Positions 15,235 through 32,520 of a stretch of DNA of 64,000 nt are shown here, in pieces. Position 1 is the stretch's first letter, and each line of letters opens with the position of its first letter. Under the pieces are notes generated by a model, which made no database searches, had not been told where the DNA came from, and saw only the letters and a list, made by a program, of their open reading frames with translations. Where the stretch lies: NCBI RefSeq assembly GCF_009833095.1, contig NZ_QRCB01000043.1:1-64000 (forward strand), read 5' to 3'. The DNA comes from Nitrosomonas sp. JL21 (GTDB lineage: Bacteria > Pseudomonadota > Gammaproteobacteria > Burkholderiales > Nitrosomonadaceae). Both the position numbers and the translations under genes were made by a program.

Positions 15235-15341
15235 AGGGCCTGGCAGAAAAATCGGCGATCGTCCCTGGTTGCTCCATTCAGTTTTTATTCATGTTGGTTC
15301 CAGTACATTGCTCTCCTAGGACTTCATCAAAGGAGACAACA

Positions 15342-15689
15342 ATGAAAACCGCCACAAAAACACTAACCAGTATCCCCGCAGCGCTGTTGCTGGCAATTAC
15401 TCTGGCTACTCCAACCTTAACTGAAGCGGGTAGGGGTCATCATGGTCATCGCCATAGCCATCACCATCACCATGATCACCATCGGCAACATGGTCACCAT
15501 CATCACCGTCATCATATGGACGGATACAACGGCATGTATTACCAACCACGCGGATATTCTCGATCCTATTATTCAACCCCGAGAAACAGTTTGAACTATT
15601 ACTCGTTGCCAGCTTATCCGGTATATGGCGCACCTAATGTGATGATGGGGATTGATACCGGAGGTGCGGGCTTTATGTTACGCTACTAA
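15342..15689 (+). CDS. Exported histidine-rich protein
   Basis: The ATG at 15342 follows AAAGGAGA. The 115-residue protein has a signal peptide (about residues 1-28, ending TEAG) and then a block with more than twenty His residues mixed with Gly, Asp and Arg (about 30-58), followed by a Tyr/Ser/Pro-rich tail. Such blocks bind divalent metals (Ni, Cu, Zn), which suggests periplasmic metal buffering. It is followed by a PepSY protein and a two-component pair on the same strand, so it may belong to their regulon. The function is inferred from composition only. Confidence 0.7.
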   Translation: MKTATKTLTSIPAALLLAITLATPTLTEAGRGHHGHRHSHHHHHDHHRQHGHHHHRHHMDGYNGMYYQPRGYSRSYYSTPRNSLNYYSLPAYPVYGAPNVMMGIDTGGAGFMLRY

Positions 15690-15785
15690 CGAGCAAAGCA
15701 AACGGCACATTCGCACAATTCACCGTGCTGCGCTGGTGGCTTGTTTTATCATTGAATGCTTTGGGTGCGGAGATTGAGGAACAAA

Positions 15786-16079
15786 ATGCGATCAATGTAT
15801 AGGATATGCGGCATGATGGTCATGATCATCATGCCTGTCAGCGGGATGCCGGCAGATCGGCAAACCACTGTTCTGAATCCATATCGGACTGGCACTTCCC
15901 AACCTGCCGGGATTACTGAACAGAAAGCCATTGCCATCGCCCAGCAGCATTTCAAAGGTCGGATTCTCGCCGTCAATCATTCAGATGATACGTATCGCAT
16001 CAAAATCTTGAGTAATCAGGGAACTGTTCATATCGTCCTGATCAATGCCACGAATGGAGCGATTATTTCCGCTCATTAA
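15786..16079 (+). CDS. Periplasmic PepSY domain protein
   Basis: The start at 15786 follows GAGATTGAGGA. The 97-residue product has a signal peptide (about 1-21, ending SGMPA) and a single PepSY domain: ITEQKAIAIAQQHFKGRIL, then DTYRIKILSNQGTVHIVLI and NATNGAIIS. PepSY domains are often found beside two-component systems and are thought to modulate sensors or proteases in the periplasm. It lies 12 bases before the response regulator gene, so it is almost certainly in that operon and may tune the sensor at 16775. Confidence 0.8.
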   Translation: MRSMYRICGMMVMIIMPVSGMPADRQTTVLNPYRTGTSQPAGITEQKAIAIAQQHFKGRILAVNHSDDTYRIKILSNQGTVHIVLINATNGAIISAH

Positions 16080-16091
16080 TGGAGTCTTTAA

Positions 16092-16775
16092 ATGCGCATT
16101 CTGGTTATCGAAGATGAGATCAAATTGCAGGATCAGATTCGCCAGCAACTGGAAGTGGCCGGATATATGGTCGATGCTTGCAGCGACGGGAACGAAGGAT
16201 TGTTTTTTGCGACCGAATATCCATTGGATGCCGCCATTATTGATATCGGTTTACCGGGTAAATCCGGGTTGGAGATTATCAAGGTCCTGCGTGAAAAAGG
16301 AATTTTGTTGCCGATTTTGATTTTGACCGCTCGCAGCAGTTGGCAAGATAAAGTGACGGGTCTGGAAATGGGGGCAGATGACTATTTGACCAAACCATTT
16401 CAGATGGAAGAATTGCAAGCCCGAATGAAGGCCTTGCTGCGCCGTTCGACCGGTATTCCGCAAACCTTGCTGAAATGCGGTCCTATTACTCTCGACGTGG
16501 CATCGCAATTGGTGACTGTCAACGGTGAGAATATCGAGCTGACATCTTTTGAGTATCGCTTGCTGGAAGAGCTAATCCGCCACCATGGCGAAGTCCTTTC
16601 CAAACACACGCTCGCCGATTATCTATATCCGCATGACGAAGATCGCGACAGTAATGTGCTTGAAGTCATGGTGGGGCGCTTGCGACGCAAGCTCGATCCC
16701 GATGGTGTTCTGAACCCGATTGAAACGATGCGCGGGCGCGGTTATCGATTCACGCTGGCCTGCAATAAATCCTGA
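16092..16775 (+). CDS. OmpR/PhoP-type response regulator
   Basis: The 227-residue regulator has a receiver with the acidic pair Glu7/Asp8 (IEDE), phosphorylated Asp51 (IIDIGLPG) and Lys in TKPF, then an OmpR winged helix ending MRGRGYRFTL. It would bind direct repeats as a dimer once phosphorylated by the overlapping kinase gene. Closest in style to PhoP/QseB. The stop codon overlaps the next ATG. Confidence 0.92.
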   Translation: MRILVIEDEIKLQDQIRQQLEVAGYMVDACSDGNEGLFFATEYPLDAAIIDIGLPGKSGLEIIKVLREKGILLPILILTARSSWQDKVTGLEMGADDYLTKPFQMEELQARMKALLRRSTGIPQTLLKCGPITLDVASQLVTVNGENIELTSFEYRLLEELIRHHGEVLSKHTLADYLYPHDEDRDSNVLEVMVGRLRRKLDPDGVLNPIETMRGRGYRFTLACNKS

Positions 16776-18112
16776 TGATGTCGCTGAACCAGCGCGTTTT
16801 ATCCAGCGCGGTGCTGGTATTGCTGATCTTTATCGTCGGCATGGCGTTGACCATGGACCGGGCTTTTTACGATAGCGCCCGATTGGGAGTACAAGACCGT
16901 CTGTTTGCAAAATTGCTGATGATCATGGGCGATACCGAAGTAGAGGAATCGGGCGCTTTGGATGTATCCACCAATTTGCTCGATGCGGAATTCGGCCATG
17001 TGAATTCAGATGCCTATGCATTCATCCTCGATCATGCTAATACCCTTGTCTGGCGCTCAACGTCATCGTTGAGTGAGCAAATCCCGGCGATTCCGCTTCT
17101 CGCCCAGGGAGAGAAACAATTTTCTCAAATTCTAATCAATGGTCAGCCGTACTTCATGTATAGCTACCGGATCGGTTGGGAAACAGAGTTGCGCGAATAT
17201 CCGCTGACGTTCAGTGTCGTTATCAACACGGAATCGTTTGATGCCCAAATGGATCGTTATCGCGAAGATCTTTGGGGCTGGCTCGGAACCATGGTGATGC
17301 TGTTGCTGGCAATGCAAATGCTGGCGTTACGGTGGGGCTTGCAGCCGCTTCGCAAAGTATCAGCCGAGCTTGCCGCGATAGAATCAGGTCAGCAGGAGAA
17401 TCTTAAGGGGATGTATCCTAGCGAATTGAGATTGTTGACTGACAGCATCAATTCGTTGATCAATCATGAGCATAAACAGCAGAAACGCTATCGGAATGGT
17501 TTGGCCGATTTGGCGCATAGCCTCAAAACACCGCTGGCAGTTCTACAGGGCGCTCTCAATAGCGACGAGGATGAGTCGTCGCGCCGCAAGACGATTCACG
17601 AACAAATTGAGCGCATGGATAACATCGTGCATTATCAATTGCGCCGTGCCGCCACTGCCGGAAGCTCACCAGGTATGGGTTTGCTCATATTACTTCCCAT
17701 GGTTAACCGAATCATCATGACGGTGAAAATGGCTTATCGAAGTAAGCATCCTGAGATCAACCTCGATATCCCCGAGACCATCAGCTTACGAATTGATGAA
17801 GGGGATTTGATGGAATTGCTCGGTAATCTGATCGACAACGCGTTTAAGTGGTGTCGGATGGGTATCGGCATATCAGCAACTTGTCAGGGAAATTGGGTGG
17901 AGATTCAGGTAAAGGACGACGGGCCGGGCATTCAATCCCATGAAATTGCACGGATCCTGGAACGCGGCGTACGCGCTGATCAATCTACCCCTGGACATGG
18001 TATTGGCTTGGCGATCGTGCGCGATATCATTCAGGTCTACGGGGGTGAATTGACAATTCAGAACAATCATCCTACCGGCGCTTGCATCACCCTGAGGCTT
18101 AAGAAAAAATAA
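16775..18112 (+). CDS. PhoQ-like sensor histidine kinase
   Basis: The 445-residue protein has two membrane helices (about 10-28 and 168-188) enclosing a periplasmic sensor of about 140 residues, a HAMP-like linker, a dimerisation helix with His248 in LADLAHSLKTPLAVLQG, and a HATPase domain (GNLIDNAFKW, DDGPGI, GHGIGLAI). The H-box AHSLKTPLAVLQ is the one found in PhoQ. The signal is probably a divalent cation or envelope stress (inference). Co-transcribed with the regulator and the PepSY gene. Confidence 0.9.
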   Translation: MMSLNQRVLSSAVLVLLIFIVGMALTMDRAFYDSARLGVQDRLFAKLLMIMGDTEVEESGALDVSTNLLDAEFGHVNSDAYAFILDHANTLVWRSTSSLSEQIPAIPLLAQGEKQFSQILINGQPYFMYSYRIGWETELREYPLTFSVVINTESFDAQMDRYREDLWGWLGTMVMLLLAMQMLALRWGLQPLRKVSAELAAIESGQQENLKGMYPSELRLLTDSINSLINHEHKQQKRYRNGLADLAHSLKTPLAVLQGALNSDEDESSRRKTIHEQIERMDNIVHYQLRRAATAGSSPGMGLLILLPMVNRIIMTVKMAYRSKHPEINLDIPETISLRIDEGDLMELLGNLIDNAFKWCRMGIGISATCQGNWVEIQVKDDGPGIQSHEIARILERGVRADQSTPGHGIGLAIVRDIIQVYGGELTIQNNHPTGACITLRLKKK

Positions 18113-18134
18113 GCGTGGGCGCAGTGCTTCTAAC

Positions 18135-18407
18135 TCACGCTTTTATCAGAGTCCATATTCCAATCAGAATAAACCCAGCACCGGCAATATATTGCAAGTG
18201 CTTAGCGCTGATATGATCAGAAATGAAACCACCGGCCAGAACGCCAATGGCTGACGTGGCGATGAGGGCCAATGAGGCCCCTGCAAATATCGTCAGCTTG
18301 CTGACCTCCTTATCGGCTGCAAAAAGAAGTGTTGCCAATTGCGTTTTGTCTCCCAGTTCTGCAATAAAAACCGTCATGAAGACGGTCAGCAGCAGTGTGT
18401 AATTCAT
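18135..18407 (-). CDS. Half-size GDT1/UPF0016 cation transporter
   Basis: This 90-residue protein has three hydrophobic helices and one ELGDKTQ motif, the signature of the GDT1/TMEM165 family (Mn2+ or Ca2+ export). Most family members have two such halves in one chain or two adjacent genes. Here only one half is present, so it probably works as a homodimer (inference). It reads leftwards toward the kinase gene, ending 22 bases from it. Confidence 0.8.
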   Translation of the reverse strand: MNYTLLLTVFMTVFIAELGDKTQLATLLFAADKEVSKLTIFAGASLALIATSAIGVLAGGFISDHISAKHLQYIAGAGFILIGIWTLIKA

Positions 18408-18598
18408 CGTTAATCGACCTCAGTTAATTCATGTCATGCTGTCATATTATCAGCTTGCTTTTAAATGCGTACAGCCATAAAAAATTTTAAAGTTTTAAAG
18501 ATCTCATCCGAAATAAGTAAAGGCCGCAATATAGGCTAATTATCAATAGGCGATGTATTGAAAACAAATTTAAGTGCGATTAAAAAAGGTAAAGCTAT

Positions 18599-19783
18599 AT
18601 GACCAACAAAGCAGAGCAGGTACTTTCGGGAGCTTCACATAAAAAAATGGGGGCCGCCAAAGTGCTCGTCGTTATCGATAAATACATAGCCGGAAAAACC
18701 TTTAAAAAAATGCTGGAAGAGTGGAATTACCATATCACAGGGGTTTGTGCTGCAGGTAAAGAAGCATTGATAAAAGCACGAGAAAATAAGCCAGATCTCA
18801 TTTTAACGGATGTTGAACTAAAAGATTGTAATGGCATACGCTTAGTGAAACAGTTGAATTTACAACCGGATCAGTCAAATCTCGGTATTTATTTTACCGC
18901 CTACGCTACTGACCTGATTGTGCAACGCACGCTCAACGCAGCTAGTGCATTAGGTTATTCAATCAAATCTCCGACGGATAAGTTCGCGCGAAATTTCGAA
19001 GCGAGTTTTTGCCGATATTTCGGTATTGATCAGACAACTATTTATAGCAAAAAGAAAGAATCCGCTACTAAACCGATTCAAGTGCTACTAGTCGATGATC
19101 AACAAATTGTGCTGTGGGGGTTAGAAAAGCTGATTGGTAATGAGCAACCAGCCATGGAGGTGGTGGCAACCGCGACTAATATTTCTGATGCCAAGCAACG
19201 GGTCATGGAAAAGCAGCCAGACATTGTTGTTCTTAATATCTCTCTGGGAGATGAGGATTGCATCAATTTGATTCCTGAATTCACCCATAATGGAAACACG
19301 CGCGTGGTTATTTTCACTGAAACGCATGATAAGGAAATCATCGATCGCGCAGTCCTGAGTGGTGCGAGAGGCGTGGTGCACAAGAAAGAACCCATGCACA
19401 CCATTGTGAGGGCGATTGAAAAAATCCACGATGGTGAGCTGTGGCTTGATCGGATTACCACGGGTCGTATTTTTCTTCAGAATTCCCGTTTTCGCGGAAA
19501 AATGGCACACGACCCCGATGCTGAAAAAATTTCAACCCTTACTCGAAAAGAATGCATGATTCTCCGAGCTTTCTCGGATGGGGTGGGAGGAGAACAGAAT
19601 AAACAGATTGCGGCAAAGTTATGCATGAGTGAGCATACTCTCCGCAATCATTTGACATCGATCTTCAGTAAGTTGGGCATTAAGAACCGATTCAGTCTCT
19701 TTGCCTATGCCAAGCAACATTTTCAGCAGCCTGTTGGCTTGCCGGATCCCTCTAAACTACCCTTTGAGAGTTTCTCCCGGTAG
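18599..19783 (+). CDS. Orphan regulator with two receiver domains and a LuxR helix-turn-helix
   Basis: The 394-residue protein has receiver 1 (about 20-140), receiver 2 (about 158-280) and a LuxR/NarL DNA-binding domain (about 310-380: LTRKECMILRAFSDG, NKQIAAKLCMSEHTLRNHL). Receiver 1 keeps Asp71 (ILTDVEL) and Lys123 but has Ile26-Asp27 where two acids are expected. Receiver 2 keeps the acidic pair (Asp166, Asp167) but has Asn213 in place of the phosphorylated Asp (VVLNISLG). Each receiver is therefore impaired in a different way. No kinase gene adjoins it. Regulation by phosphorylation of receiver 1 alone, or without phosphorylation, is possible. Confidence 0.85.
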   Translation: MTNKAEQVLSGASHKKMGAAKVLVVIDKYIAGKTFKKMLEEWNYHITGVCAAGKEALIKARENKPDLILTDVELKDCNGIRLVKQLNLQPDQSNLGIYFTAYATDLIVQRTLNAASALGYSIKSPTDKFARNFEASFCRYFGIDQTTIYSKKKESATKPIQVLLVDDQQIVLWGLEKLIGNEQPAMEVVATATNISDAKQRVMEKQPDIVVLNISLGDEDCINLIPEFTHNGNTRVVIFTETHDKEIIDRAVLSGARGVVHKKEPMHTIVRAIEKIHDGELWLDRITTGRIFLQNSRFRGKMAHDPDAEKISTLTRKECMILRAFSDGVGGEQNKQIAAKLCMSEHTLRNHLTSIFSKLGIKNRFSLFAYAKQHFQQPVGLPDPSKLPFESFSR

Positions 19784-19813
19784 GTAAATCTTAAGAAAAA
19801 GTAATGATTAGGC

Positions 19814-19884
19814 AAGGCGAAACCAGGTTCAATCCCTGCAGTTCTTGAAGCTCTGAGCAGATGATGAGCCTGGTTTCAACGCCA
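19814..19884. repeat. Inverted repeat after the double-receiver gene
   Basis: GAAACCAGG (19819-19827) pairs perfectly with CCTGGTTTC (19870-19878) around a loop of about 40 bases, with nearby GGC/GCC extending it. No T-run follows. It may be a long-range hairpin between the convergent genes. Confidence 0.3.
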
Positions 19885-19937
19885 AGTGGTACATATTTGA
19901 GCTGGTGGAACGCAGTATTTTTTAGTGTGATACTGGT

Positions 19938-22265
19938 TTATCTCGTCAATCCCGCATACAACACCGGTAGTTTTTCCGGTAGCCGCTCCACATGATCGAC
20001 CACCAGATAATTGCGCTCACCGAAAATGCGCGATACATATTGATCCGCGCGTGGATCCAGGCTCATGCAATAGGTTAGGATACCGGAGCGGCCGGCTTCT
20101 TCGACGGCTTTTTTAGTGTCGTGGCGCAGGTATTGAGGATCGCGCACATCCACATCGGCTGGTTCTCCGTCAGTAATGACCAGCAGTAGTTTTTTTGCCG
20201 ATTTTTGCAGTTTCAGGTAGTGCGTGGCGTGGCGCATGGCCGCGCCCATGCGGGTCGAAAGCTGTCCTGACATGCCGGCGAGTTTGGCTTTGGGAATTTC
20301 GTCGTAGGGCTGATCGAAATCCTTGAAGCGGAAGTATTCGACATCGTGCCGACCATCTGAGCAGAAACCGTGAATCGCAAACGGGTCGCCGATTTTGTTG
20401 ATGGCGTTGGCGAGCAGCACAGTTGCCTGGCGTGTCAGGTCGAGTACGGAGTAGTCGTGTCCGGCGACTTTTTCATTCGTCGATTCGGACAGATCGAGTA
20501 GCACCAGCACGGAAATATCGCGTACCTTGCGTACCGACCGCATCATGATGCGCGGATCGGGTTGCATGCCCATGCGAATATCGATCAGCGAGCGGATCGC
20601 AGCATTAATGTCGATTTCGTCACCATCTTCGAGCTTGCGAATGCGGCGGGTGCCTTGCGGCTGCATCGCGTCGAGCAGGAATTTCATGCGTGCGATTTCG
20701 CGTTTGTATTGGTTGGCGATGTCGTCGATGCACTGCATGTCACCCAGTTTGGCGCGTTTTTCCTGAACGGTGGCCCAATCCGGACGTTCAAGTTGAATTT
20801 GATAATCCCATTCGGAATAGTGGTAGGGGGCCGATACCGGTTCCTTGCCTTCCATATCGTTGTACGAGACGCCCATGTCTTCGTACGGGAAGAATTCGGT
20901 GCCCATGACCCAGATTTCCTCTGCGTCGTCTCCGGCGGTTTCGACGTCGAGTTCGTTGGCAAATTCCATGACGTTGACGTATTTGCGCACTTGTTTCGGC
21001 GCATCGTAACCGGCCGACAGCGATTTGTTGAAATCGAACTCTTCGAATTCCCAGAAATAGCGATTGTCATCTCGATACGGCGCGGTGAGTATGTCGGTGC
21101 GGGGGTTGTACGGAATCCGTTTGTCTATGAAACTATGGGCAAGTTGTACACCGATTTCCCACGAGGTTTTGTGGCTATGGAGCTGGTCTTTTGCCGCTTT
21201 GAATAGTTTCCGTCCTTCGACGATCCATGGGTCCTTGTCTTGGTAATCCGGGTCGAGCAGTGCGCGCGCCAAGCGGTTCAAATAATCGCCCATCGATGCA
21301 TTCATGTCCGGTGTGGCGCTATGCAATGCCGACCACGTTTGGCGCAAGCCAGGAAAACGCCGGATCGACAGCTCTTCGATACGCGCATCTTCAATGACCG
21401 AAATCACGGCCATTTGCATCGGATTTAAACTTTCCGCAGAAATCGGTTGCTGGGTTTCGACCAGATGTGCCGCAGCATGCGCTGCAGCGGCTCGGTACAC
21501 TTCCGTTGCCGATACATCGCCATAGGCGTCGTAGGCATCAGGCAGATTAATAAAATAATTTTCGATGAAAGGCTTGTAACCCTCGCGCGTTTCAAAGTCG
21601 CCCGATGTTGGTTTCATGAAAAAATCCCGTCCCCACAATGCGCGCAGATACATATTGATACGGCGTTGCACGTCGACGAACAAGGTACCTTTGCGTTCTT
21701 TCTGCAATACTGCGAGGGATTCTTTCGATTCCAAACCAAAATAGCGGATTTGCTCTTCGTAATTGGTGCGGTGCGCATGTGCGCCCCACATGGCCCAGCG
21801 GCGCAAGCCGCCCAGTGTCAATTGTCCGAACAGGATATCCAGTTTGCCGAGCATCGGGCGGATGCCGCGCGGCGCTTGCGCGATCAAGGTATTCAGGAAT
21901 TGCAGATAATTCTGAAACAGATGGGTATCGCCCAGTCTTTTGGCAGCGGTCGGCGAGGTTGCCAGCACCAGTTCGATGACGGCGCCGGATGTGCGTGAAG
22001 CGAGACTCAATAGCGAGGTGGCCAGATCACCGACCATGTCTTCGCCGATTTCCTTAGCGACCAACGGAACCTCGTCGATCCAGCAATCGACCAAGCTGCG
22101 CCCCCGTCCCAAGCCCCGGATCGCCGATGCTCCTTTCAGGTAATTATCCAGGCCGCGCGGCGAGAAGATCTTGACAGCTTCTGGCCAGGCATGATGGAGC
22201 AATTCGACCGATTCCGGTTCCAGATCTTCAAGTAATTCTTTGTAATCATCCAGATTGATACTCAT
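19938..22265 (-). CDS. cbbO: RubisCO activase subunit CbbO
   Basis: CbbO is the adaptor of the CbbQ-CbbO motor that removes inhibitory sugar phosphates from RubisCO. The 775-residue length fits the family. The C-terminal von Willebrand A domain (about 580-770) has the MIDAS motif LLDLSESTNE from Asp591, and ITDGEPADVDV further on; this domain docks to RubisCO. The N-terminal 570 residues are helical and lack recognised motifs. It ends the cbbLSQO group, 64 bases after cbbQ. Confidence 0.95.
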   Translation of the reverse strand: MSINLDDYKELLEDLEPESVELLHHAWPEAVKIFSPRGLDNYLKGASAIRGLGRGRSLVDCWIDEVPLVAKEIGEDMVGDLATSLLSLASRTSGAVIELVLATSPTAAKRLGDTHLFQNYLQFLNTLIAQAPRGIRPMLGKLDILFGQLTLGGLRRWAMWGAHAHRTNYEEQIRYFGLESKESLAVLQKERKGTLFVDVQRRINMYLRALWGRDFFMKPTSGDFETREGYKPFIENYFINLPDAYDAYGDVSATEVYRAAAAHAAAHLVETQQPISAESLNPMQMAVISVIEDARIEELSIRRFPGLRQTWSALHSATPDMNASMGDYLNRLARALLDPDYQDKDPWIVEGRKLFKAAKDQLHSHKTSWEIGVQLAHSFIDKRIPYNPRTDILTAPYRDDNRYFWEFEEFDFNKSLSAGYDAPKQVRKYVNVMEFANELDVETAGDDAEEIWVMGTEFFPYEDMGVSYNDMEGKEPVSAPYHYSEWDYQIQLERPDWATVQEKRAKLGDMQCIDDIANQYKREIARMKFLLDAMQPQGTRRIRKLEDGDEIDINAAIRSLIDIRMGMQPDPRIMMRSVRKVRDISVLVLLDLSESTNEKVAGHDYSVLDLTRQATVLLANAINKIGDPFAIHGFCSDGRHDVEYFRFKDFDQPYDEIPKAKLAGMSGQLSTRMGAAMRHATHYLKLQKSAKKLLLVITDGEPADVDVRDPQYLRHDTKKAVEEAGRSGILTYCMSLDPRADQYVSRIFGERNYLVVDHVERLPEKLPVLYAGLTR

Positions 22266-22329
22266 GGCGGCACCTGTTAATGAATTAAAACATTCTCAGC
22301 GGGGTAAAACGGAGTAATGATCTACTGGA

Positions 22330-23136
22330 TTAGTTGAAGAACGTGCTAACTGCGGCATCGAGTGCATCGCGCATATCCGGGTCGTCGGTAATCGGACGCA
22401 CCAACGCCACGCGGCATGCGGCATGCGCATCGACTTTCTTGGCGATCAAACTGCCAGCATAAATCAACATGCGAGTGGAAATACCTTCGTCCAAGCCATG
22501 ACCTTTCAAATTGCGCGCACGTTCAGCGATCGATACCAGTTTTTCGGCAATCTCATTAGATACGCCAGATTCGTGAGCTACAATTTCGCTTTCGACTTCA
22601 TGATTGGGATAATTGAAGTCCAATGCACCAAAACGTTGCTTAGTCGACTGTTTTAGATCTTTCATCAAACTCTGATACCCTGGGTTGTAGGAAATGACGA
22701 TCTGAAAATCCGAATGTGCTTGGACCAATTCGCCTTTTTTCTCCAGCGGCAGTACGCGGCGATTATCGGTGAGAGGGTGGATGACTACGGTAGTATCCTG
22801 GCGTGCTTCCACCACCTCATCCAAATAGCAAATTGCGCCGTAACGTGCAGCCACTGCCAACGGACCATCCTGCCAGCGTGTACCACTAGCATCCAACAAG
22901 AAGCGACCGACCAGATCGGAAGCGGTCATGTCTTCGTTACAGGCTACGGTAATGAGTGGTTTTTTTAGTTTCCACGCCATGTATTCGACGAAACGAGTCT
23001 TGCCGCAACCGGTCGGGCCCTTCAGCATCATGGGCATGCGCACCGAATAGGCTGCTTCGTACAATTGCACTTCATCGGCTACCGGATGGTAATAGGGTTC
23101 TTTAGTAACACGATATTGATCGATGATATCGCTCAT
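22330..23136 (-). CDS. cbbQ: RubisCO activase AAA+ ATPase CbbQ
   Basis: The 268-residue MoxR-type AAA+ ATPase has Walker A GPTGCGKT (residues 40-47), Walker B ICYLDEV and a sensor segment VISYNPGYQ. It forms hexamers and drives RubisCO reactivation with CbbO. An attenuator-like structure separates it from cbbS, so its expression may be set below that of cbbLS. Confidence 0.95.
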
Positions 23137-23188
23137 GATGAGCTCCTGTGATAGTTATCTTAGAAACATGGTTCCACGAATTCCGGTC

Positions 23189-23243
23189 AAAAAAAACCCC
23201 CGGCCCTGTGATAGGGGTAAGGGGGTTTCAGGGTTCGAAACCC
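23189..23243 (-). promoter_or_regulatory. Attenuator-like terminator with competing hairpin between cbbS and cbbQ
   Basis: On the minus strand, AAACCCCC (23221-23228) and GGGGGTTT (23194-23201) form an 8-bp stem followed by a T-run (23189-23196): an intrinsic terminator. Just upstream in the transcript, GGGTTTC (23237-23243) pairs with GAAACCC (23223-23229), using the same bases as the 5' terminator arm, so the two hairpins exclude each other. The upstream hairpin begins 8 bases after the cbbS stop codon, so a ribosome finishing cbbS would cover it and favour termination (inference). Confidence 0.65.
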
Positions 23244-23251
23244 GTTATGAC

Positions 23252-23608
23252 TTATACGGTCTTGCCGCGGTATATCACCATCGCTGTACCTTGCGATTGG
23301 TTGAAATTATTATAACCAATCAACCGAACATGATTATTTGGATTAGCTTTATGACATGCGGCAGCTTCTGCCAGCACGCGTTCTACATCCGTTTCACCAA
23401 ACATTGGCAATTTCCACATATACCAGTAAGAGTCCATAACATACTCAGGTTCGGTATGTTCGATGGCTGGGTTCCAGCCTTTACTGATTAAATATTGCAC
23501 TTGTTTCTTGATATCTTTGTCGGCCATGGCAGGCAGATAGGAAAATGTTTCAAATTTACGGCTTGCTGGATCACTGACACGTGATTTGTAATCGATTACT
23601 TCGCTCAT
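23252..23608 (-). CDS. cbbS: RubisCO small subunit
   Basis: The 118-residue protein matches form I small subunits: FSYLPAM near the start, then [13 protein letters not shown] and [15 protein letters not shown]. It joins CbbL in the L8S8 enzyme. The gene lies 79 bases after cbbL. Confidence 0.97.
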
Positions 23609-23634
23609 TATTTTTCCTTAACTTTAGTGAGATG

Positions 23635-23673
23635 AAGGAGAAAAGCAGTGTTTAATCATCAGCCTTTCTCCTT
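23635..23673 (-). repeat. Intercistronic hairpin between cbbL and cbbS
   Basis: AAGGAGAAA (23635-23643) pairs with TTTCTCCTT (23665-23673) around a loop of about 21 bases. No T-run follows on the minus strand, so it is more likely an RNA processing or stability element than a terminator. Its arm contains GGAGAAA-like sequence complementary to the cbbS leader. Confidence 0.4.
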
Positions 23674-23687
23674 TGGCTATGTATTGC

Positions 23688-25109
23688 TTACTTGTGGGCT
23701 ACGTCCAGTTTGTCAACAGTGTCAAACTCGAACTTGATCTCTTTCCATGTTTCCATGGCGATTTTCAGTTCTGGACTACTTTTGGCTGCCTTGGTCAAGA
23801 TCGCTTTGCCTTCTTTCTCGATTTCAATACCTTGGTTACGTGCTTCTACGCAGGCTTCCAATGCAACACGGTTAGCCGCAGCGCCCGCAGCGTTACCCCA
23901 TGGATGACCCAGGGTACCACCACCAAACTGCAAGCAAGCATCATCACCGAAGATTGCAACCAGTGCTGGCATGTGCCAAACGTGAATACCACCCGATGCA
24001 ACTGGAAATACACCTGGCATAGAACCCCAATCTTGGTCGAAGAACAGGCCGCGGCTGCGGTCTTCTTTGACGAATTTGTCACGCATGGTGTCGATCCAGC
24101 CGAGGGTTGCCGCACGGTCACCTTCCAGTTTACCAACCACGGTACCGGAGTGCAGGTGATCACCACCAGACAAACGCAGCACTTTGGTTAAAACGCGGAA
24201 ATGAATGCCATGGTGCGGATTGCGGTCAAGCACAGCGTGCATAGCACGGTGGATGTGCAGCAGCATTCCATTATTGCGGCACCAGTTAGCCAATCCTGTG
24301 TTGGCTGTTAAACCACCGGTCAAGTAGTCATGCATAATGATCGGTGCGCCCAATTCCTTGGCAAACTCTGCGCGCTTGTACATTTCTTCTGGGTTTGGTG
24401 CTGTTACGTTCAGGTAGTGGCCTTTACGTTCTCCGGTTTCACGTTCTGCTTTTTGGCAAGCTTCCACTACGAATTGGAAGCGATCGCGCCAACGCATGAA
24501 AGGCTGGCTGTTAACATTCTCATCGTCCTTGGTCAGATCCAGACCACCGCGCAGACATTCATATACGGCACGGCCATAATTTTTGGCAGACAGACCCAGC
24601 TTAGGCTTGATGGTGCAACCTAACAGTGCACGGCCATATTTGTTCAAACGATCGCGTTCCACTTGAATACCTGTAGGAGGGCCGCCGCAGGTTTTGACGT
24701 AAGCAATCGGGAAGCGCACATCTTCCAGACGCAGGGCGCGTAACGCTTTAAAACCAAACACGTTACCGACCAGCGAGGTCAGTACGTTAACGACAGAACC
24801 TTCTTCAAACAGATCAATCGGGTATGCCACGAAAGCATAAAAGCAGGTGTCATCTCCAGGTACATCTTCAATCTTGTAGGCGCGTCCTTTGTAGTAGTCC
24901 AGGTCGGTCAGCAAGTCGGTCCACACTGTGGTCCAGGTACCGGTGGAAGATTCTGCGGCTACTGCAGCAGCGACTTCTTCACGAGGTACGCCGGGTTGAG
25001 GGGTAATTTTGAAACAGGCCAGAAGATCCGTATCCAACGGGGTGTATTCAGGTGTCCAGTAGGTTTGCCGGTATTCTTTAACACCTGCGTTATATGTTTT
25101 TACTGCCAT
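23688..25109 (-). CDS. cbbL: RubisCO large subunit, form I
   Basis: CbbL fixes CO2 onto ribulose 1,5-bisphosphate. The 473-residue length and the sequence fit the proteobacterial form IA group. The carbamylated lysine is Lys194 in [17 protein letters not shown], catalytic lysine and loop residues are in TIKPKLGLS, and loop 6 lies in [13 protein letters not shown]. It leads the cbbLSQO group and is divergent from cbbR. No carboxysome genes are adjacent. Confidence 0.98.
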
Positions 25110-25242
25110 GATATTTTCTCCTATTAGATTCCACTCAACTCCAGCTAACTGATCAGACCGAAAAGAGAGGACATTGCGTTACGAACATCAAACATCGCTA
25201 CTACATGGAACGCATGATAGCGCTAATAATCTATAAGAACAA

Positions 25243-25257
25243 ATCAGTAATTCTGAT
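25243..25257. promoter_or_regulatory. Candidate CbbR (LysR-type) operator
   Basis: ATCAG-TAATT-CTGAT is a 15-bp dyad in the cbbL-cbbR spacer, of the ATC-N9-GAT form usual for LysR-type sites. Repeated TTATGA elements (25261-25266 and 25278-25283) lie close to cbbR and may be further contacts. The assignment rests on position and symmetry. Confidence 0.45.
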
Positions 25258-25301
25258 ATTTATGATAAGGTGATGGTTATGAGAATTGCCTAGAATATAC
25301 C

Positions 25302-26216
25302 ATGCTACATCTTACGTTGCGACAATTAAAAGTATTTGAATCTGTGGCCCGACACTTGAGCTATTCACGCGCCGCGGATGAGCTTCATCTGACTCAACCG
25401 GCTGTTTCAATGCAGATTAAGCAGTTGGAAGACAATATCAGTTTACCGCTGTTCGAGCAACTGGGTAAGCGGATTTACCTGACAGAAGCGGGACGCGAAC
25501 TTTATCAATACAGTCGTGCCATTTCTCAGCAACTCGCGGATATGGAAGTTGCGCTGGATGAGTTGAAAGGAATGGAACGAGGCAAATTGAATATTTCGGT
25601 CGTGACGACGGCGAATTATTTTGCCCCGCATTTGCTGGCAAAATTTTGTCAGCGTTATAGCGGGGTGACAGTGAGTCTGAACGTTTCAAATCGTGAAACC
25701 GTCTTGAAACAGCTATCGGATAATTTGGTCGACCTCGCCATCATGGGGCAACCCCCGGAAGACTCGGATATCGATAGTGAGTCATTCATGGAAAATCCAT
25801 TGGTGGTCATTGCACCGCCGGATCACTCGTTGTGCAAGGAACGCAATATTCCGGTCGAGCGCTTGCAGAAAGAAATTTTTTTAGTGCGCGAATCCGGTTC
25901 CGGGACACGCAGCGCTATGGAACGTTTCTTTGCCGAACATCACATTCAAATCAAGAAAGGCATGGAAACGGATACCACGGAAGCCATCAAACAAGCTGTG
26001 CAGGCGGGAATGGGATTAGGTATTATGTCCCGTCACACTGCGGAATTGGAACTAGAAACCAAGCGGTTGAAGGTTCTGGATGTCCAAGGCTTTCCGATCA
26101 TTCGCTATTGGCATGTGGTGAACAGGAAAAATAAGCGCCTATCCGGTGTGGCCAATGCGTTCAGGGAATTTTTATTGAAAGAAGCTGAAAAGTTGATGCA
26201 TGAATCTAAAAAATAA
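25302..26216 (+). CDS. cbbR: LysR-type regulator of RubisCO genes
   Basis: The 304-residue regulator has an N-terminal winged helix-turn-helix (SYSRAADELHLTQPAVSMQIKQLE) and a substrate-binding-like effector domain. CbbR activates cbb operons in response to metabolites such as RuBP or NADPH. Divergent location next to cbbL fixes the assignment. Confidence 0.95.
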   Translation: MLHLTLRQLKVFESVARHLSYSRAADELHLTQPAVSMQIKQLEDNISLPLFEQLGKRIYLTEAGRELYQYSRAISQQLADMEVALDELKGMERGKLNISVVTTANYFAPHLLAKFCQRYSGVTVSLNVSNRETVLKQLSDNLVDLAIMGQPPEDSDIDSESFMENPLVVIAPPDHSLCKERNIPVERLQKEIFLVRESGSGTRSAMERFFAEHHIQIKKGMETDTTEAIKQAVQAGMGLGIMSRHTAELELETKRLKVLDVQGFPIIRYWHVVNRKNKRLSGVANAFREFLLKEAEKLMHESKK

Positions 26217-26223
26217 ATTGATG

Positions 26224-26239
26224 TGTGATTTAAATCACA
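26224..26239. promoter_or_regulatory. Perfect CRP/FNR-family binding site
   Basis: TGTGATTTAAATCACA is a perfect palindrome and an exact match to the CRP consensus TGTGA-N6-TCACA. Its centre (26231.5) is about 41 bases before a start point predicted from the -10-like TAAGAT (26260-26265), the class II activator position. It precedes the sensor-like gene at 26316. Confidence 0.65.
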
Positions 26240-26315
26240 TCCTTGTTCACTATTCTATGTAAGATTCATCCTACTCTGTGATTGTATGAGGAACCCTAAC
26301 CATTCCGAGGGAAAA

Positions 26316-26984
26316 GTGAATGATCAAGAGATCGTAGACCGCAGCGTTTATCTGGCATGCAGCCTATTATCGATCATCATTCTGGCGGTGGATTTCATTA
26401 CGCCTCTCGGCGTTGCCAGTGGGGTACCTTATATTGTCGTGGTGCTGATGTCATTAAAATCCCCGGAAAAGTATTTCACGCTGATCGTTGCGGTGGTTTG
26501 TACCGTATTCGTAGGAATCGGATATTTGGGGTCGCCGCCAAGTCTGTCGCCCACGTATCAAGTCATTGCCAACCGGGGATTATCAATTTTTGCAATTTGG
26601 ATTACTGCATTATTGGCGTTGATACAAAAAGTGAAAATGGATGAACTGCATCGCGAACGGATTAACCATTTGCAATCGATCAAAGAATTGGAGTTGCAGG
26701 AGGAGAAACTCAAAGTGCTGAAAGCTACCATGAGAACCGTCCAGGATATCATGGGAAATTTCTTAAACAACCTGCAATATTTCAAAGCTCGAATCAATAA
26801 GAACAAGACGTTATCGCCCGAAGAGATCAATCAATTGAACGTGCTGATTCATGATGCATCATTATGGTTGAATAAAATGGGAAATACGGAAGAGGTGCGC
26901 GAAAAGAAAATGGCGGGTGATATGATAGGCATAGATTTGGAATATGAGCAGGTTCGATCGAATGACGATACAATCGCCAAATAA
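26316..26984 (+). CDS. Membrane protein with a degenerate histidine-kinase dimerisation segment
   Basis: GTG at 26316 is favoured because GAGGG lies just upstream; an ATG at 26286 in frame has no such site. The protein has about four membrane helices in its first 120 residues, resembling small MASE-type sensor modules, then a coiled coil (HLQSIKELELQEEKLKVLK) and a segment TMRTVQDIMGNFLNNLQYF. This looks like the H-box region of HisKA_2-type kinases (TVHHRVKNNLQ) with the histidine lost, and no ATPase domain follows. It may be a sensor subunit or partner of another kinase. A CRP-consensus site lies upstream. Confidence 0.6.
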   Translation: MNDQEIVDRSVYLACSLLSIIILAVDFITPLGVASGVPYIVVVLMSLKSPEKYFTLIVAVVCTVFVGIGYLGSPPSLSPTYQVIANRGLSIFAIWITALLALIQKVKMDELHRERINHLQSIKELELQEEKLKVLKATMRTVQDIMGNFLNNLQYFKARINKNKTLSPEEINQLNVLIHDASLWLNKMGNTEEVREKKMAGDMIGIDLEYEQVRSNDDTIAK

Positions 26985-27016
26985 AGCCATTTAATAATTA
27001 TCACTGAGAGAATGTA

Positions 27017-27241
27017 ATGACAGGACAAGGATCTGGCGGCAATGTACTTGCAGCAGTATGTAGTTTCTTTATCCCCGGTTTGGGACAGTTGGTGCAAGGG
27101 CGGATTTTGTCGGCATTTTTATTTTTCGCAATTGCCGGGATTGGCTACTTCTTTGCGGTATTGATCATTCCAGCGGTCATTGGCGGGATTTTTCATCTAT
27201 GGTCTATCATCGATGCCGCACGATTCGTCGGCGCCGACTAA
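27017..27241 (+). CDS. Small two-helix membrane protein
   Basis: The 74-residue protein has two hydrophobic segments: SFFIPGLGQLVQGRILSAF and a longer one through FFAIAGIGYFFAVLIIPAV, with a final DAARF. The PGLGQ...GR pattern is shared with TM2-like and other small membrane proteins of unknown role. It follows the degenerate sensor gene by 32 bases and may be co-transcribed. Confidence 0.65.
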   Translation: MTGQGSGGNVLAAVCSFFIPGLGQLVQGRILSAFLFFAIAGIGYFFAVLIIPAVIGGIFHLWSIIDAARFVGAD

Positions 27242-27449
27242 TCCGCATCGACAGAGTATTTTCATTCAGTGCCTGCTTTTTACCTTCAGGATTGTCATTC
27301 AATGAATATCGTCAGTGGAGCACTCTCTCGTCATCGAACTCCCGGCAGGTGATTTCATTACGTTTATTCCCGATAATAATCTTTTTGAAAGATTGAAAAT
27401 TTAATTGAATTCGCTCAATATCATTCACTAGTCATAGTTTTTTACGTTC

Positions 27450-28796
27450 ATGTCCTCATCCAAGAATGCTGCACAAAAAGTAGGCTTTATTTCACTGGGT
27501 TGCCCAAAAGCACTGGTCGATTCCGAACACATCCTCACCCAATTGCGAGCAGAAGGCTACGAAATATCACCTTCTTACGAGGATGCGGATTTGGTGGTAG
27601 TCAATACCTGCGGATTCATTGATAGCGCCGTCGAAGAATCACTGGATGCGATCGGCGAAGCGCTGGCGGAGAACGGCAAGGTGATCGTGACCGGTTGTCT
27701 TGGAGCCAAAGAAAATGGCGAAGTCGTCAAAAAAGCGCATCCACAGGTATTGGCTGTGACAGGGCCACAGGCTTTGCCCGAGGTGATGTCGGCAATCCAT
27801 GAGCATCTGCCTCAGCCGCATGATCCTTTCACCAGTTTGATACCCCCGCAGGGAATTCGGTTGACGCCCAGGCATTATGCCTACGTCAAAATATCCGAGG
27901 GTTGTAATCACCGCTGCACATTCTGCATTATTCCATCGATGCGCGGTGATTTAGTGAGCCGACCGATACACCAGGTATTGCAGGAAGCAGAGCACTTGGT
28001 CGATGCTGGCGTCAAGGAATTGTTGATCATTTCGCAGGACACCAGCGCGTATGGAGTCGATATCAAATATCGAACGGGTTTCTGGCAGGGCAGACCCATC
28101 AAGACTCGCTTGACCGAGCTTGCGCAAGCATTGGGTTCGTTCGGTGTCTGGGTGCGCTTGCATTATGTCTATCCGTATCCCCATGTGGATGAGGTGATTC
28201 CCTTAATGGCAGAAGGAAAAATATTGCCGTATCTGGATGTGCCGTTTCAGCATGCCAATGCGCGCATACTCAAAGCAATGAAACGGCCCGCCAATGCTGA
28301 GAACAATCTGGTGAGAATACAGCAATGGCGTGAGGTTTGCCCTGATATCACGATCCGCAGCACATTCATTGTCGGTTTTCCTGGCGAGACCGAGGCGGAA
28401 TTTGAGGAGTTATTGAATTTCTTGCAGGAAGCCCAATTGGATCGAGTGGGATGTTTCGCCTATTCCCCCGTTGCAGGGGCAGCAGCCAATCAGTTGTCCG
28501 ATCCTGTGCCTGAGGCGGTGAAAGAGGAAAGGCGCGCCCGGTTCATGCAATTGCAGGAAGATATCAGCCGGCAGCGTCTCGCGACCAAGGTTGGTCAACG
28601 GATGACTGTATTGATCGATGCAGTGACAGACCAAGGTGTGATTGCGCGAAGCAGCGCTGATGCGCCTGAGATCGATGGATTGGTCTACGTTGAACACGTT
28701 GTCGATGCGCAACCAGGAGATTTGATCGACGTTGAGATCAAGGCTGCTGACGCACATGATTTGTTCGCTACCGTGGTCAAACAGGCGCATGACTGA
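27450..28796 (+). CDS. rimO: Ribosomal protein S12 methylthiotransferase
   Basis: RimO adds a methylthio group to Asp89 of ribosomal protein S12. The 448-residue protein has the UPF0004 domain ([15 protein letters not shown]), the radical-SAM cluster CNHRCTFC and a C-terminal TRAM domain. It lies 13 bases before earP. Confidence 0.95.
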
Positions 28797-28809
28797 TCAT
28801 TGATCGTTC

Positions 28810-29946
28810 ATGCGCCGTTCCTGGGATATTTTCTGTACGGTCATTGATAACTATGGCGATATCGGCGTTTGTTGGCGCCTGGCTCGGCAACTCGCGGCTG
28901 AACATCATCGGTCGGTGCGGCTTTGGGTGGATGACCTGACGAGTTTTGCCCGTATCGCTCATGACGTTGATCCACAGCGTCAGCAGCAGCGACTGCACGG
29001 TGTTGAGATTTACCTTTGGCAGCAACCGGTGATTGCGCACGCTGAGCCGGCTGATGTCGTGATTGAGGCCTTTGGCTGTGAACTTTCTGCGGATTATATG
29101 CAGAAGATGGCCGTAAAAAAACACCCGGCCGTTTGGATCAATCTCGAATATCTGAGTGCGGAATCATGGGTGCCTCAGTATCATGGATTACCTTCACCAC
29201 ATCCTGTCCTACCGCTGACGAAAAGATTTTTCTTTCCTGGTTTCATGCCGGAAACGGGCGGATTGTTGCGGGAATGTCATCTGATCTCGCAGAGGAGAGC
29301 ATTTGATGCTCGATCTGAGCAGAAATTCTTGCAGCACCATAGTTTCCTCGAGCGGGCATCGGCAGAAATAAGGATTTCGCTTTTTTGTTATGAAACGGCG
29401 CCTGTGGAAAGGTTGATTCAGATTTTCTGCGAATCCTCTCAGCCTGTAGTATTGTTTGTACCAGAGGGTAAAGCGGCTGATCGGATCTCAATTTTTCTGG
29501 ACGGACGTGCTCATCATGAGAAACTGCTGAAATGTGGCCCTCTGACGGTGCAGATTTTTCCTTGGCTTGAGCAAGCCGAATATGATCGATTGTTATGGAG
29601 TTGTGATATCAACATTGTGCGCGGTGAGGATTCATTCGTTCGTGCGCAGTGGGCTGCCAAACCCTTTATCTGGACGATTTATCCGCAAACCGAGGGTGCG
29701 CACTGGAATAAATTGAATGCATTTCTCGATCTTTATACTGCTCAGATGGAAATCGAAACGATGAATGCGGTGCAAGCCTTATGGACTGGCTGGAACGGAA
29801 AAGATGATTTCAATTTCAATATTTGGATGAACTTCGTGGCGTTGCGGAAGTCTTTGATGCAGCACAATAACGATTGGGTTGATCAATTGCTGAAACAGAA
29901 TGATTTGACATCCAATCTGGTGCAGTTTGTCGAAAATCAGCTATAA
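28810..29946 (+). CDS. earP: EF-P arginine rhamnosyltransferase
   Basis: EarP transfers rhamnose from dTDP-rhamnose to Arg32 of EF-P. The 378-residue protein opens with the family signature DIFCTVIDNYGDIGVCWRLA and has the late motif RGEDSFVRAQWAAKPFIW that binds the nucleotide sugar. It is directly upstream of efp, which carries Arg32, confirming the modification type. Confidence 0.95.
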   Translation: MRRSWDIFCTVIDNYGDIGVCWRLARQLAAEHHRSVRLWVDDLTSFARIAHDVDPQRQQQRLHGVEIYLWQQPVIAHAEPADVVIEAFGCELSADYMQKMAVKKHPAVWINLEYLSAESWVPQYHGLPSPHPVLPLTKRFFFPGFMPETGGLLRECHLISQRRAFDARSEQKFLQHHSFLERASAEIRISLFCYETAPVERLIQIFCESSQPVVLFVPEGKAADRISIFLDGRAHHEKLLKCGPLTVQIFPWLEQAEYDRLLWSCDINIVRGEDSFVRAQWAAKPFIWTIYPQTEGAHWNKLNAFLDLYTAQMEIETMNAVQALWTGWNGKDDFNFNIWMNFVALRKSLMQHNNDWVDQLLKQNDLTSNLVQFVENQL

Positions 29947-30028
29947 TTCGCCGTTTATAAATTAGGCATTGATGAGTTTCAATGCTTTCATCTTGTTAAT
30001 TATTTTTTATTTGGAATAGAACTACACT

Positions 30029-30592
30029 ATGAAAACCGCAATGGAACTGCGCTCAGGTAATGTCGTCATGATAGGCAATGACCCTATGGTCATACAACGA
30101 GCGGAATTTACCAAATCGGGCCGTAATGCCTCAGTGGTCAAGATGAAGCTGAAGAATTTATTTTCCAGCACTACGACGGAAACTGTCTATAAAGCTGATG
30201 AAAAATTTGATCTGGTCGTTCTTGACAAAAAAGAATGCACCTATAGTTATTTTGCCGATCCATTGTATGTATTCATGGATGCAGATTTCAATCAAATCGA
30301 GGTAGAGGCGGACAACATGCAAGATGTCCTGAACTATCTCATCGATGGCATGGAAGATGTCTGCCAGGTGACTTTTTATGAAGGCAAGGCGATTTCAGTG
30401 GAATTGCCGAATTCGATCGTCCGTGAAGTTGAATATACTGAACCGGCTGTCAGAGGCGATACCACCGGCAAGATCATGAAACCGGCACGGTTGCTTGGAA
30501 CAGGCTTTGAAATTCAAGTCCCTGCATTTGTGGAAATCGGCGACAAAATTGATATTGATCCGCATACCAATGAGTTCAGGAAGCGTGTGTGA
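30029..30592 (+). CDS. efp: Elongation factor P
   Basis: EF-P relieves ribosome stalling at polyproline. The 187-residue protein has the three-domain EF-P layout; Arg32 is at the loop tip ([10 protein letters not shown]), the arginine subtype modified by EarP. A strong terminator follows. Confidence 0.97.
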
Positions 30593-30615
30593 TGGGTAAT
30601 TGAGCATTCTTTACC

Positions 30616-30646
30616 AAAGGCGGCTAAAAGCCGCCTTTTTTATTTT
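30616..30646 (+). terminator. Intrinsic terminator of efp
   Basis: AAAGGCGGCT and AGCCGCCTTT form a perfect 10-bp stem with a 3-base loop, followed by TTTATTTT. Confidence 0.9.
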
Positions 30647-30767
30647 GTAAGTATGATTCTCTCGCTTACGAGAACGATGAGAGTCATCTCGAACTCAAAC
30701 CAAGAACCCCGTTTTGGATGAGATCGCTGAGTCCATTGATTGATCACTGCTTACAGGGAGTTTTTAT

Positions 30768-31778
30768 ATGATTATCTCGAGATCTTCTGTCGCCTTAGCC
30801 TTATTCATACTGCTTGCTTCACTGACTTCCACTCGATCCGTTCGAGCGGATGATTCTCAAGTAGGTGCGTGGTCGATTGCTTCCTCCGCACCGACCGAAC
30901 GGACCGAAGTCGCTGCTGCTGCCATTGGCAGTAAAATTTATGTGGTCGGTGGATTTAATAAGCCGAATTTGCAGAATGCGTTGAAATTCGCTATCAGCAC
31001 GGATGTTGAGATCTATGATACGGCTGCGGATTCTTGGTCGATTGCCACGTCATTACCAGAAGGCCGGCATCATGCCGGGATCGCATCGCTGGATGGTATG
31101 TTGTATGTGATCGGCGGATTTACTAAATCAGGACTATCAGTTTGGCAAGCAGCGGCTACAGTGTATCAATACAACCCGGCAACTCAGGAATGGCGCGAGC
31201 TAGCGCCGATGCCCACCGCTCGTGGAGCCCTTGGGGTTGCTGTGCATCAGAATCGCCTATATGCGCTCGGCGGATATGATGGCAAGCGCAATTCTGATGC
31301 AGTGGAAGTGTTTGATCCGAAGACCAATACATGGTCATCGGGTGCGCCCATGCCTACGCCACGGGATCATCTTGCGGTCGTCGCGGCTGATCTTCGCTTG
31401 TATGCCATCGGCGGCCGCCCGGAACTGGATTATCACCGCAATATGGCGACGGTTGAAGAATACGATCCACAAACTCAGCAGTGGCGAAGCCGTGCGAAAT
31501 TGCCAACGCCACGAAGCGGCATTGCTGCGGGTGTCATTGATGAGTGGATATATGTGGTTGGTGGCGAATCGAAAGAAGGTACATTCAGCGCCAACGAAGC
31601 CTACCATCCGGCGACTGATCAATGGCGCAGCATGGCGCCGATGCCAACAGCACGGCATGGATTGGGTGCAGCAGCTGTGAACGGACGTTTATATGTCATC
31701 AGTGGCGGTCCGACGCCGGGTGGATCGTTTAGTCAGGTCAATGAAGTATTTACCCCGCCTGTGGTTAAACCCAGATGA
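30768..31778 (+). CDS. Exported Kelch-repeat propeller protein
   Basis: The 336-residue protein has a signal peptide (about 1-27, ending VRA) and six Kelch motifs, each ending in a YVVGG-like strand: KIYVVGGF, MLYVIGGF, RLYALGGY, RLYAIGGR, WIYVVGGE, RLYVISGG. This predicts a six-bladed beta-propeller in the periplasm or outside the cell. Kelch propellers mediate binding; sialate mutarotases (NanM) have the same fold but the context gives no support for that. A SD-like AGGGAG precedes the ATG. Confidence 0.85.
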   Translation: MIISRSSVALALFILLASLTSTRSVRADDSQVGAWSIASSAPTERTEVAAAAIGSKIYVVGGFNKPNLQNALKFAISTDVEIYDTAADSWSIATSLPEGRHHAGIASLDGMLYVIGGFTKSGLSVWQAAATVYQYNPATQEWRELAPMPTARGALGVAVHQNRLYALGGYDGKRNSDAVEVFDPKTNTWSSGAPMPTPRDHLAVVAADLRLYAIGGRPELDYHRNMATVEEYDPQTQQWRSRAKLPTPRSGIAAGVIDEWIYVVGGESKEGTFSANEAYHPATDQWRSMAPMPTARHGLGAAAVNGRLYVISGGPTPGGSFSQVNEVFTPPVVKPR

Positions 31779-31839
31779 ACCGGCCTGGATTATGGGCGGG
31801 ATTACGCTGCACATGCGAATGAGATAGCACAAATGGGCG

Positions 31840-32400: not shown

Positions 32401-32520
32401 TTTTATACTGATTCCTGTGATTGATCTTCAGCAAAGGTTGTTATGGCAGTGTCCGAAAGAAGAAGTTCTCAGTTTTGCATCAAAGCCTATGCAAGCATGT
32501 TGTTGCCGTCATATGACAAG

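Follow-up and report, generated by a model that had tools for sequence, protein, structure and literature searches.

Transcription attenuators in which a terminator and an antiterminator compete are known from 5' leaders, as in the trp and his operons. The attenuator of the E. coli rph-pyrE operon is intercistronic and translation-coupled, and in this case it is the terminator itself that is blocked by a ribosome nearby. In the cbb operon of N. europaea, unequal levels of the cbb mRNAs were reportedly ascribed, in Microbiology in 2004, partly to premature termination; we know of no competing hairpin described for that operon. Cells require RubisCO in large quantity and less of its activase, yet both are encoded in one operon. 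Further 5'-leader attenuators include ilvBNC, for which a three-hairpin model has been presented (PMC11857589), and the greA and rnk leaders; PMC2965389 is a survey of leaders.

The element described here lies between cbbS and cbbQ in a 64,000-nucleotide stretch of the genome of Nitrosomonas sp. JL21 (hereafter the window). It resembles the 5'-leader attenuators (trp, his, ilvBNC, greA, rnk) in having mutually exclusive hairpins that share one arm, the later of which is an intrinsic terminator. However, it differs from them in being located within an operon, downstream of a gene of 118 codons, with no leader peptide and no regulatory codons of the trp/his type, as the upstream reading frame is cbbS itself. 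With rph-pyrE it shares a terminator shortly past a gene's stop codon in mid-operon, but here the terminator's 5' arm (C) starts 23 nt past the stop, and conservation extends to a separate, competing arm; a group of relatives with a hairpin 9–12 nt past the stop is closer to the pyrE layout. The operon is of the same type as that of N. europaea. The form II cbbM-cbbQO operons also have a terminator after the RubisCO gene but, unlike the present junction, no competing arm. In the open-access literature on cbb/RubisCO terminators and attenuators, no such element appears in the titles or abstract openings among the matches listed, and none is described in the available parts of PMC5506194, PMC2942843, PMC4660213, and PMC2965389.

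Competing folds behind cbbS

Based upon the list of open reading frames (ORFs) and profile searches, the cbb operon of the window is on the minus strand with cbbR divergent from it, and its genes are as follows.

25302..26216, plus strand: cbbR, LysR-type regulator, divergent (ORF; best match NF045990 CbbR, 3.8e-81, at 272.5 bits, the cut-off being 450)
23688..25109, minus strand: cbbL, form I RubisCO large subunit (ORF; NCBIfam NF003252, 7.8e-240)
23252..23608, minus strand: cbbS, small subunit (ORF; Pfam PF00101, 2.6e-38)
22330..23136, minus strand: cbbQ, AAA+ RubisCO activase subunit (ORF; Pfam CbbQ_C PF08406, 2.5e-34)
19938..22265, minus strand: VWA-domain activase partner, which from its position we take to be cbbO (ORF; Pfam VWA, 4.4e-06)

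The stop codon of cbbS is TAA (23254-23252, minus strand), and the cbbS-cbbQ spacer is 115 nt long. In the named genome set, the nearest relatives of this cbbS are from N. oligotropha Nm45 and from further records of Nitrosomonas. As read from the sequence, the RNA after the cbbS stop is GUCAUAAC-GGGUUUCG-AACCC-UGAAACCC-CCUUACCCCUAUCACAGGGCC-GGGGGUUUUUUUU, in which the following elements are distinguished.

23236..23243, minus strand: arm A (GGGUUUCG), antiterminator-like 5' arm with B or C as partner (sequence, stepwise folds, comparative tests)
23231..23235, minus strand: arm B (AACCC), forming the small A:B hairpin (stepwise folds)
23223..23230, minus strand: A-pairing part of arm C (UGAAACCC) (sequence, stepwise folds)
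23193..23229, minus strand: terminator hairpin C:D (folds)
23229-23221, minus strand: 5' arm of C:D, GAAACCCCC (folds)
23216-23213/23207-23204, minus strand: inner CCCU/AGGG pairing of C:D (folds)
23201-23193, minus strand: 3' arm of C:D, GGGGGUUUU (arm D; folds)
23189..23196, minus strand: U tract of eight U (sequence)

The GGGUUUC of arm A (23243-23237) pairs with GAAACCC of arm C (23229-23223), a single G.U pair extending this helix to 8 bp, whereas in C:D the arm GAAACCCCC (23229-23221) is paired with GGGGGUUUU (23201-23193). The claim of the earlier note that mutually exclusive hairpins follow cbbS is thus borne out, as A:C and C:D share GAAACCC and therefore cannot fully coexist; the RNA possesses a second hairpin which uses one arm of the terminator and thereby excludes it, as is characteristic of attenuators. 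C:D itself is a GC-rich hairpin, with nine pairs (one of them G.U) in its outer stem and the U tract directly after it, as in intrinsic terminators. The note had described it as GGGGGTTT plus eight T; the terminator stands but this wording does not, as there are eight U in all, of which three or four lie within the stem. A third pairing, A:B (GGGUU/AACCC, with a 3-nt loop), is compatible with the terminator. A pattern scanner that allowed loops of 3–8 nt did not have the C:D terminator in its list.

The competition is also seen when the growing RNA is folded stepwise to its minimum free energy (MFE). A:B forms first (-5.2 kcal/mol), followed by A:C, which has an energy of -5.9 at 28 nt and -10.3 from 30 nt and persists at 54 nt, being the MFE structure while the RNA of the window lengthens by about 26 nt; at 60 nt it has given way to A:B together with C:D (-23.8). 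In the MFE fold of the whole spacer (z = -1.63), the upstream arm has its partner 3' of the U tract and C:D stands, and therefore C:D wins at equilibrium. For the segment 23130-23260 (minus strand), pairing is also predicted between the upstream arm and CGGAAUUCGU, which lies 3' of the U tract, and a transcript that reads through may therefore take on a further fold.

In comparison with shuffled sequences, the A:C pairing of the window gave p-values of 0.010 and 0.007 with the full C arm and of 0.18 with a trimmed arm. Taken on its own it is modest, and it is the comparative evidence that lifts it above chance. This range of p-values (0.007 to 0.18, depending on arm length) and the thermodynamic preference for C:D are both consistent with a plain mid-operon terminator, for which the A:C match would be incidental and due to a G-rich A and a C-rich C. 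However, the dinucleotide shuffles, the cross-clade permutation and the controls with other terminators, with D, with flanking sequence and with cbbM, all of which are presented below, argue against this explanation, and we regard it as very improbable.

Several other identities of the spacer were considered and rejected. A tRNA remnant had been a candidate because GGGTTCGAAACCC on the plus strand resembles a T arm, but ARAGORN detected no tRNA in the window. Similarly, no known RNA family in Rfam matched the window at the gathering score, the best sub-threshold match of the spacer being NsiR1 (E 0.051, 19.9 bits versus 39). A genome-wide repeat was also rejected, as CGGGTTTCGAACCC has one exact match in its own genome (the site itself) and two sites with one mismatch. 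Lastly, a separate cbbQ promoter was rejected, as promoter-like sites in 15000-33000 are not in excess (22 versus 25.2 in shuffles) and the only such match on the minus strand that reaches into the spacer (23152-23123) overlaps the start of cbbQ.

Pairing of the competing arm in related operons

The junction was compared in 245 entries (110 including the window, and 135 of 140 further stretches), which comprised 197 distinct spacers after identical ones were merged, many Nitrosomonas genomes having been entered twice. A terminator was called past the cbbS stop in 165 of the 197 distinct cbbS-cbbQ spacers, although six of these calls start 46–80 nt on and are partly mis-picked. These counts are from a second terminator finder, as the first had picked wrong hairpins, including that of the window (p 0.515 there). 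The second finder mis-picks a few (e.g. L005, L068, L072, L092, L189; such rows were kept when within 10–45 nt), and the 32 spacers for which it called no terminator include some with a terminator beyond an insertion (L009, L059, L123, L150) or a hairpin near the stop (L076, L102, L104, L177). In the test that was applied, the sequence between the cbbS stop and the terminator (the U stretch) was paired with C, defined as the 5' arm of the terminator and located irrespective of A, and the result was compared with dinucleotide shuffles of the U stretch. The 32 spacers without a called terminator and three with a U stretch shorter than 6 nt were excluded; clustering at 80% identity gave 80 clusters, and the exclusion of eight whose U stretch was outside 10–45 nt left 72.

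The A:C pairing was significant at p < 0.05 in 23 of these 72 clusters and at p < 0.1 in 29, with combined Fisher values of 5e-16 to 9e-17; when the C arm was lengthened by 3 nt, 24 of 71 clusters reached p < 0.05 (Fisher 4e-18). A terminator within 45 nt was present in 36 of 46 families, of which 35 were testable. With one sequence per family, in a sample consisting of the window and part of the further stretches only, 13 of the 35 families were significant at p < 0.05 (Fisher 1.5e-11; 12 of 35 and 1.9e-10 without the lengthened C) and the other 22 did not reach this level. The comparison of spacers in relatives that the earlier note had proposed thus came out in favor of the pairing. In addition, when U stretches and C arms were swapped between clades, the own-pair residual was -2.48 with a permutation standard deviation of 0.29, and none of 20,000 permutations was as good (p 5e-5); nevertheless, a sequence's own C was the single best partner in only three of the 72 clusters, the median rank being 18.

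The arms themselves vary in sequence between families while their pairing persists. They are GGGUUUC/GAAACCC in the window, GCGACGGG/CCCGUCGC in a Thiobacillus record (L069), GCAGCGG/CCGCUGC in a record labelled Nitrosovibrio (L062), and CGGGCAGGG/CCCUGCCCG in L243. A search for column-wise covariation by means of MAFFT and RNAalifold on the segments preceding D gave no consensus structure (31 and 41 sequences, energy 0) because, as far as is visible, the registers slip between clades; hence, tests at the level of the duplex were used. In a Sulfuricella/Gallionella-type group, as judged by eye, a hairpin 9–12 nt past the cbbS stop leaves no room for A, although the finder called some of these. 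This arrangement is seen in L074, L077, L078, L102-L104, L153, L166-L168, and similar loci, where a further inverted repeat (GGACGCAAGCGGC... type) is often present ahead of cbbQ.

The enrichment is specific for the pairing of the U stretch with C. No enrichment was observed for pairing of the U stretch with D (Fisher 0.93, 72 clusters), of the post-terminator segment with C (Fisher 0.67, 67 clusters), or of the last 27 nt of cbbS with C (Fisher 0.73 in the 20 clusters with sequence, the same 20 giving 1.5e-05 for the U stretch), and self-folding of the U stretch was not clearly enriched (Fisher 0.07, 67 clusters). For terminators after other ORFs, taken at -12 kcal/mol or better versus -10 or better in the cbbS set, p < 0.05 was reached by none of 31 in stretches of the same genome and by four of 56 in genome G166 (Fisher 0.13), or by none of 24 and two of 29, respectively, when limited to U stretches of 10–45 nt; the pairing energies of these controls were weaker, with means of -6.6 and -10.9 versus -12.3 kcal/mol in the cbbS set. 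Among the form II cbbM loci (L309-L338), a terminator follows the gene in 28 of 30 and cbbQ is downstream in 23 of 30, but in the 22 with cbbQ and a testable stretch no competing arm was detected (two of 22 at p < 0.05, Fisher 0.41). In eight loci where cbbS leads into what we take to be carboxysome genes, no terminator was called in seven, and the hairpin of the eighth is without A (p 0.97). Five loci had initially been scored as without cbbQ; four of them (L224, L236, L238, and L243) have it 430–800 nt past the stop, and the fifth (L211) has neither cbbQ downstream nor a terminator. In genome G645 (L237/L305), cbbS is followed by cbbQ and yet no terminator is present.

Taken together, the conserved A:C pairing and the clean controls argue that A:C is, on this comparative evidence, kept by selection as an antiterminator-like arm at the RubisCO/activase junction. 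This also suggests that competing-fold attenuators can persist inside operons while their bases change freely, and families of RNA defined by sequence would therefore miss them.

Possible roles in attenuation and translation sensing, and alternatives

An intercistronic transcription attenuator that sets partial read-through into cbbQO is the explanation towards which we lean. Polymerase that has passed cbbLS would meet a terminator whose stem starts 23 nt after the cbbS stop, where some of it would stop, giving the cbbLS mRNA, and some would continue into cbbQO. While D is unmade, A could form a hairpin with C and compete with the terminator, raising read-through, and the balance of A:B, A:C, and C:D would set the ratio of RubisCO to activase. 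This balance might be tipped by the position of the ribosome, the speed of the polymerase, or a factor. The direct basis for the explanation is provided by the pairings, their exclusivity, and the fact that many families maintain the pairing of A with C. From the comparison of these sequences, A:C is likely to function as an antiterminator, in which case it would increase read-through, and the RubisCO to activase ratio would be the property that is selected. In its simplest form, a fixed or regulated share of the polymerases may read into cbbQO. The conserved terminator and competing fold between the two sets of genes probably help to set the amount of activase per RubisCO, and a conserved RNA element at this junction would offer a simple explanation of how a ratio is set within one operon.

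RT-PCR of the A. ferrooxidans cbb2 operon joins cbbS2 and cbbQ2 in one transcription unit (PMC2942843), and so polymerase reads across a cbbS-cbbQ junction in one autotroph at least. When the cbb2 sequence was sought with the published primers, one match was obtained among the 338 loci (L122, from the window's genus) and the A. ferrooxidans junction was not found; against genomes, the primers gave only matches with two mismatches, in three of 15. In another gene cluster, as reported in PMC5506194, LysR1 bound the cbbS-cbbQ-1 spacer DNA, as it did all spacers tested, and partial deletion of that spacer lowered RubisCO activity in a cbbL-deleted clone. In view of this binding, control at the DNA level is a further possibility.

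Several observations speak against parts of this explanation, among them the 22 of 35 families that are not significant, the group in which A has no room, and five loci in which long insertions separate A from C. Furthermore, an incomplete D suffices for C:D to prevail at equilibrium. Among clusters with an A:C signal, the crossing lies at -3.7 with native and at -4.3 with shuffled A-stretches (28 clusters, Wilcoxon p 0.0015, two of the 30 signal clusters being omitted as they have no crossing), a shift of about 0.6 nt. In the clusters without this signal the values are -3.9 and -4.2 (40 clusters), and the shift of about 0.3 nt is about half as large. The barrier of the direct path from A:C to C:D was not significantly above that of shuffles, either at the cbbS junctions (means of 10.5 versus 9.0 kcal/mol, 35 families, Fisher 0.11) or for cbbM (6.8 versus 6.1 kcal/mol, 22 families, Fisher 0.55), and hence the large barriers (median 12.1 kcal/mol, 33 clusters) were dropped as evidence. 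In view of the small shift at equilibrium and the barrier result, the folding estimates, which are crude, do not say that A:C blocks termination, and the pairing may have some other use, such as protection of a 3' end. In such a post-transcriptional role, C would re-pair with A once D has been trimmed or cut, and the 3' end of the cbbLS mRNA would thereby gain a second hairpin for its protection. That A:C is conserved and yet hardly delays C:D at equilibrium is as expected if it acts without D; however, form II cbbM has a similar terminator with no competing arm, and we consider this role improbable.

The attenuator could also be sensitive to translation, as the earlier note had suggested. A ribosome finishing cbbS would, in this model, cover A and free C, favoring termination, whereas slow or uncoupled translation would let A:C form and polymerase enter cbbQO. 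This is a special case of the intercistronic attenuator, and whatever probability it has is contained in that of the attenuator. A terminating ribosome covers roughly 9–12 nt past the stop. In agreement with the model, A starts 1–9 nt past the stop in 27 of the 32 clusters for which p is below 0.1, and the spacer contains neither an Rfam aptamer nor any other element already known. Removal of 10 nt past the stop also halves the expected number of pairs with C (from 11.7 to 5.7 in 29 clusters), and in the window it makes the local fold less stable (-3.4 instead of -10.3 kcal/mol). On the other hand, A shows no preference for the stop end beyond what spacer length gives (mean relative position 0.47, equal in shuffles, Wilcoxon p 0.47), being near the stop only because the spacers are short. 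In the remaining five of the 32 clusters A starts at 10–21 nt (17 nt in L170, 21 nt in L067), and is therefore at or beyond the edge of the ribosome, if the footprint given above is applied. With the 10-nt removal, based upon this same footprint, the expected pairs fall below two in only four of the 29 clusters, and at least two are left in 25. The ribosome logic is thus possible for the window's operon, where removal of the 10 nt does weaken the fold, but it could not apply to every one of the relatives, and we consider it doubtful. Of the earlier interpretation as a whole, the exclusive hairpins are supported, the pairing being conserved, and the translation sensitivity is not.

A broader proposal is that form IA RubisCO operons of the Gammaproteobacteria (in the GTDB sense, which includes the former Betaproteobacteria) carry a widespread, sequence-divergent antiterminator that makes transcription of the activase genes depend on the completion of cbbS translation. 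We put this forward tentatively and as slightly less probable again. If it were true, activase would be made in proportion to the shortfall in RubisCO translation, and an RNA of about 60 nt would provide feedback from an enzyme to its repair machine with no ligand or protein.

Other features of RubisCO junctions

The genome of the window contains a second RubisCO operon (contig C67; L002 304-3221, minus strand), with cbbL, a divergent cbbS (34% identity), and what is presumably a CbbX-like AAA+ protein, the gene names of this operon being our assumption. Behind this red-type cbbS, the cbbS-cbbX spacer has one hairpin, with no U tract behind it and no competing arm visible. An additional ORF, about 103 codons long, separates the terminator from cbbQ in L236/L293 and L243/L295; for one of these ORFs, the first 60 residues had no Pfam match. 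Lastly, five loci (L005, L009, L059, L123, and L150) have long insertions between arm A and the terminator, whose CCCCC begins 154–172 nt past the stop. The insertions carry inverted repeats of the GTTGAAAA or GAAGTTGT type, and neither the terminator nor the G-rich arm is lost. From their sequences they look like small mobile elements, and they represent natural separations of A from C.
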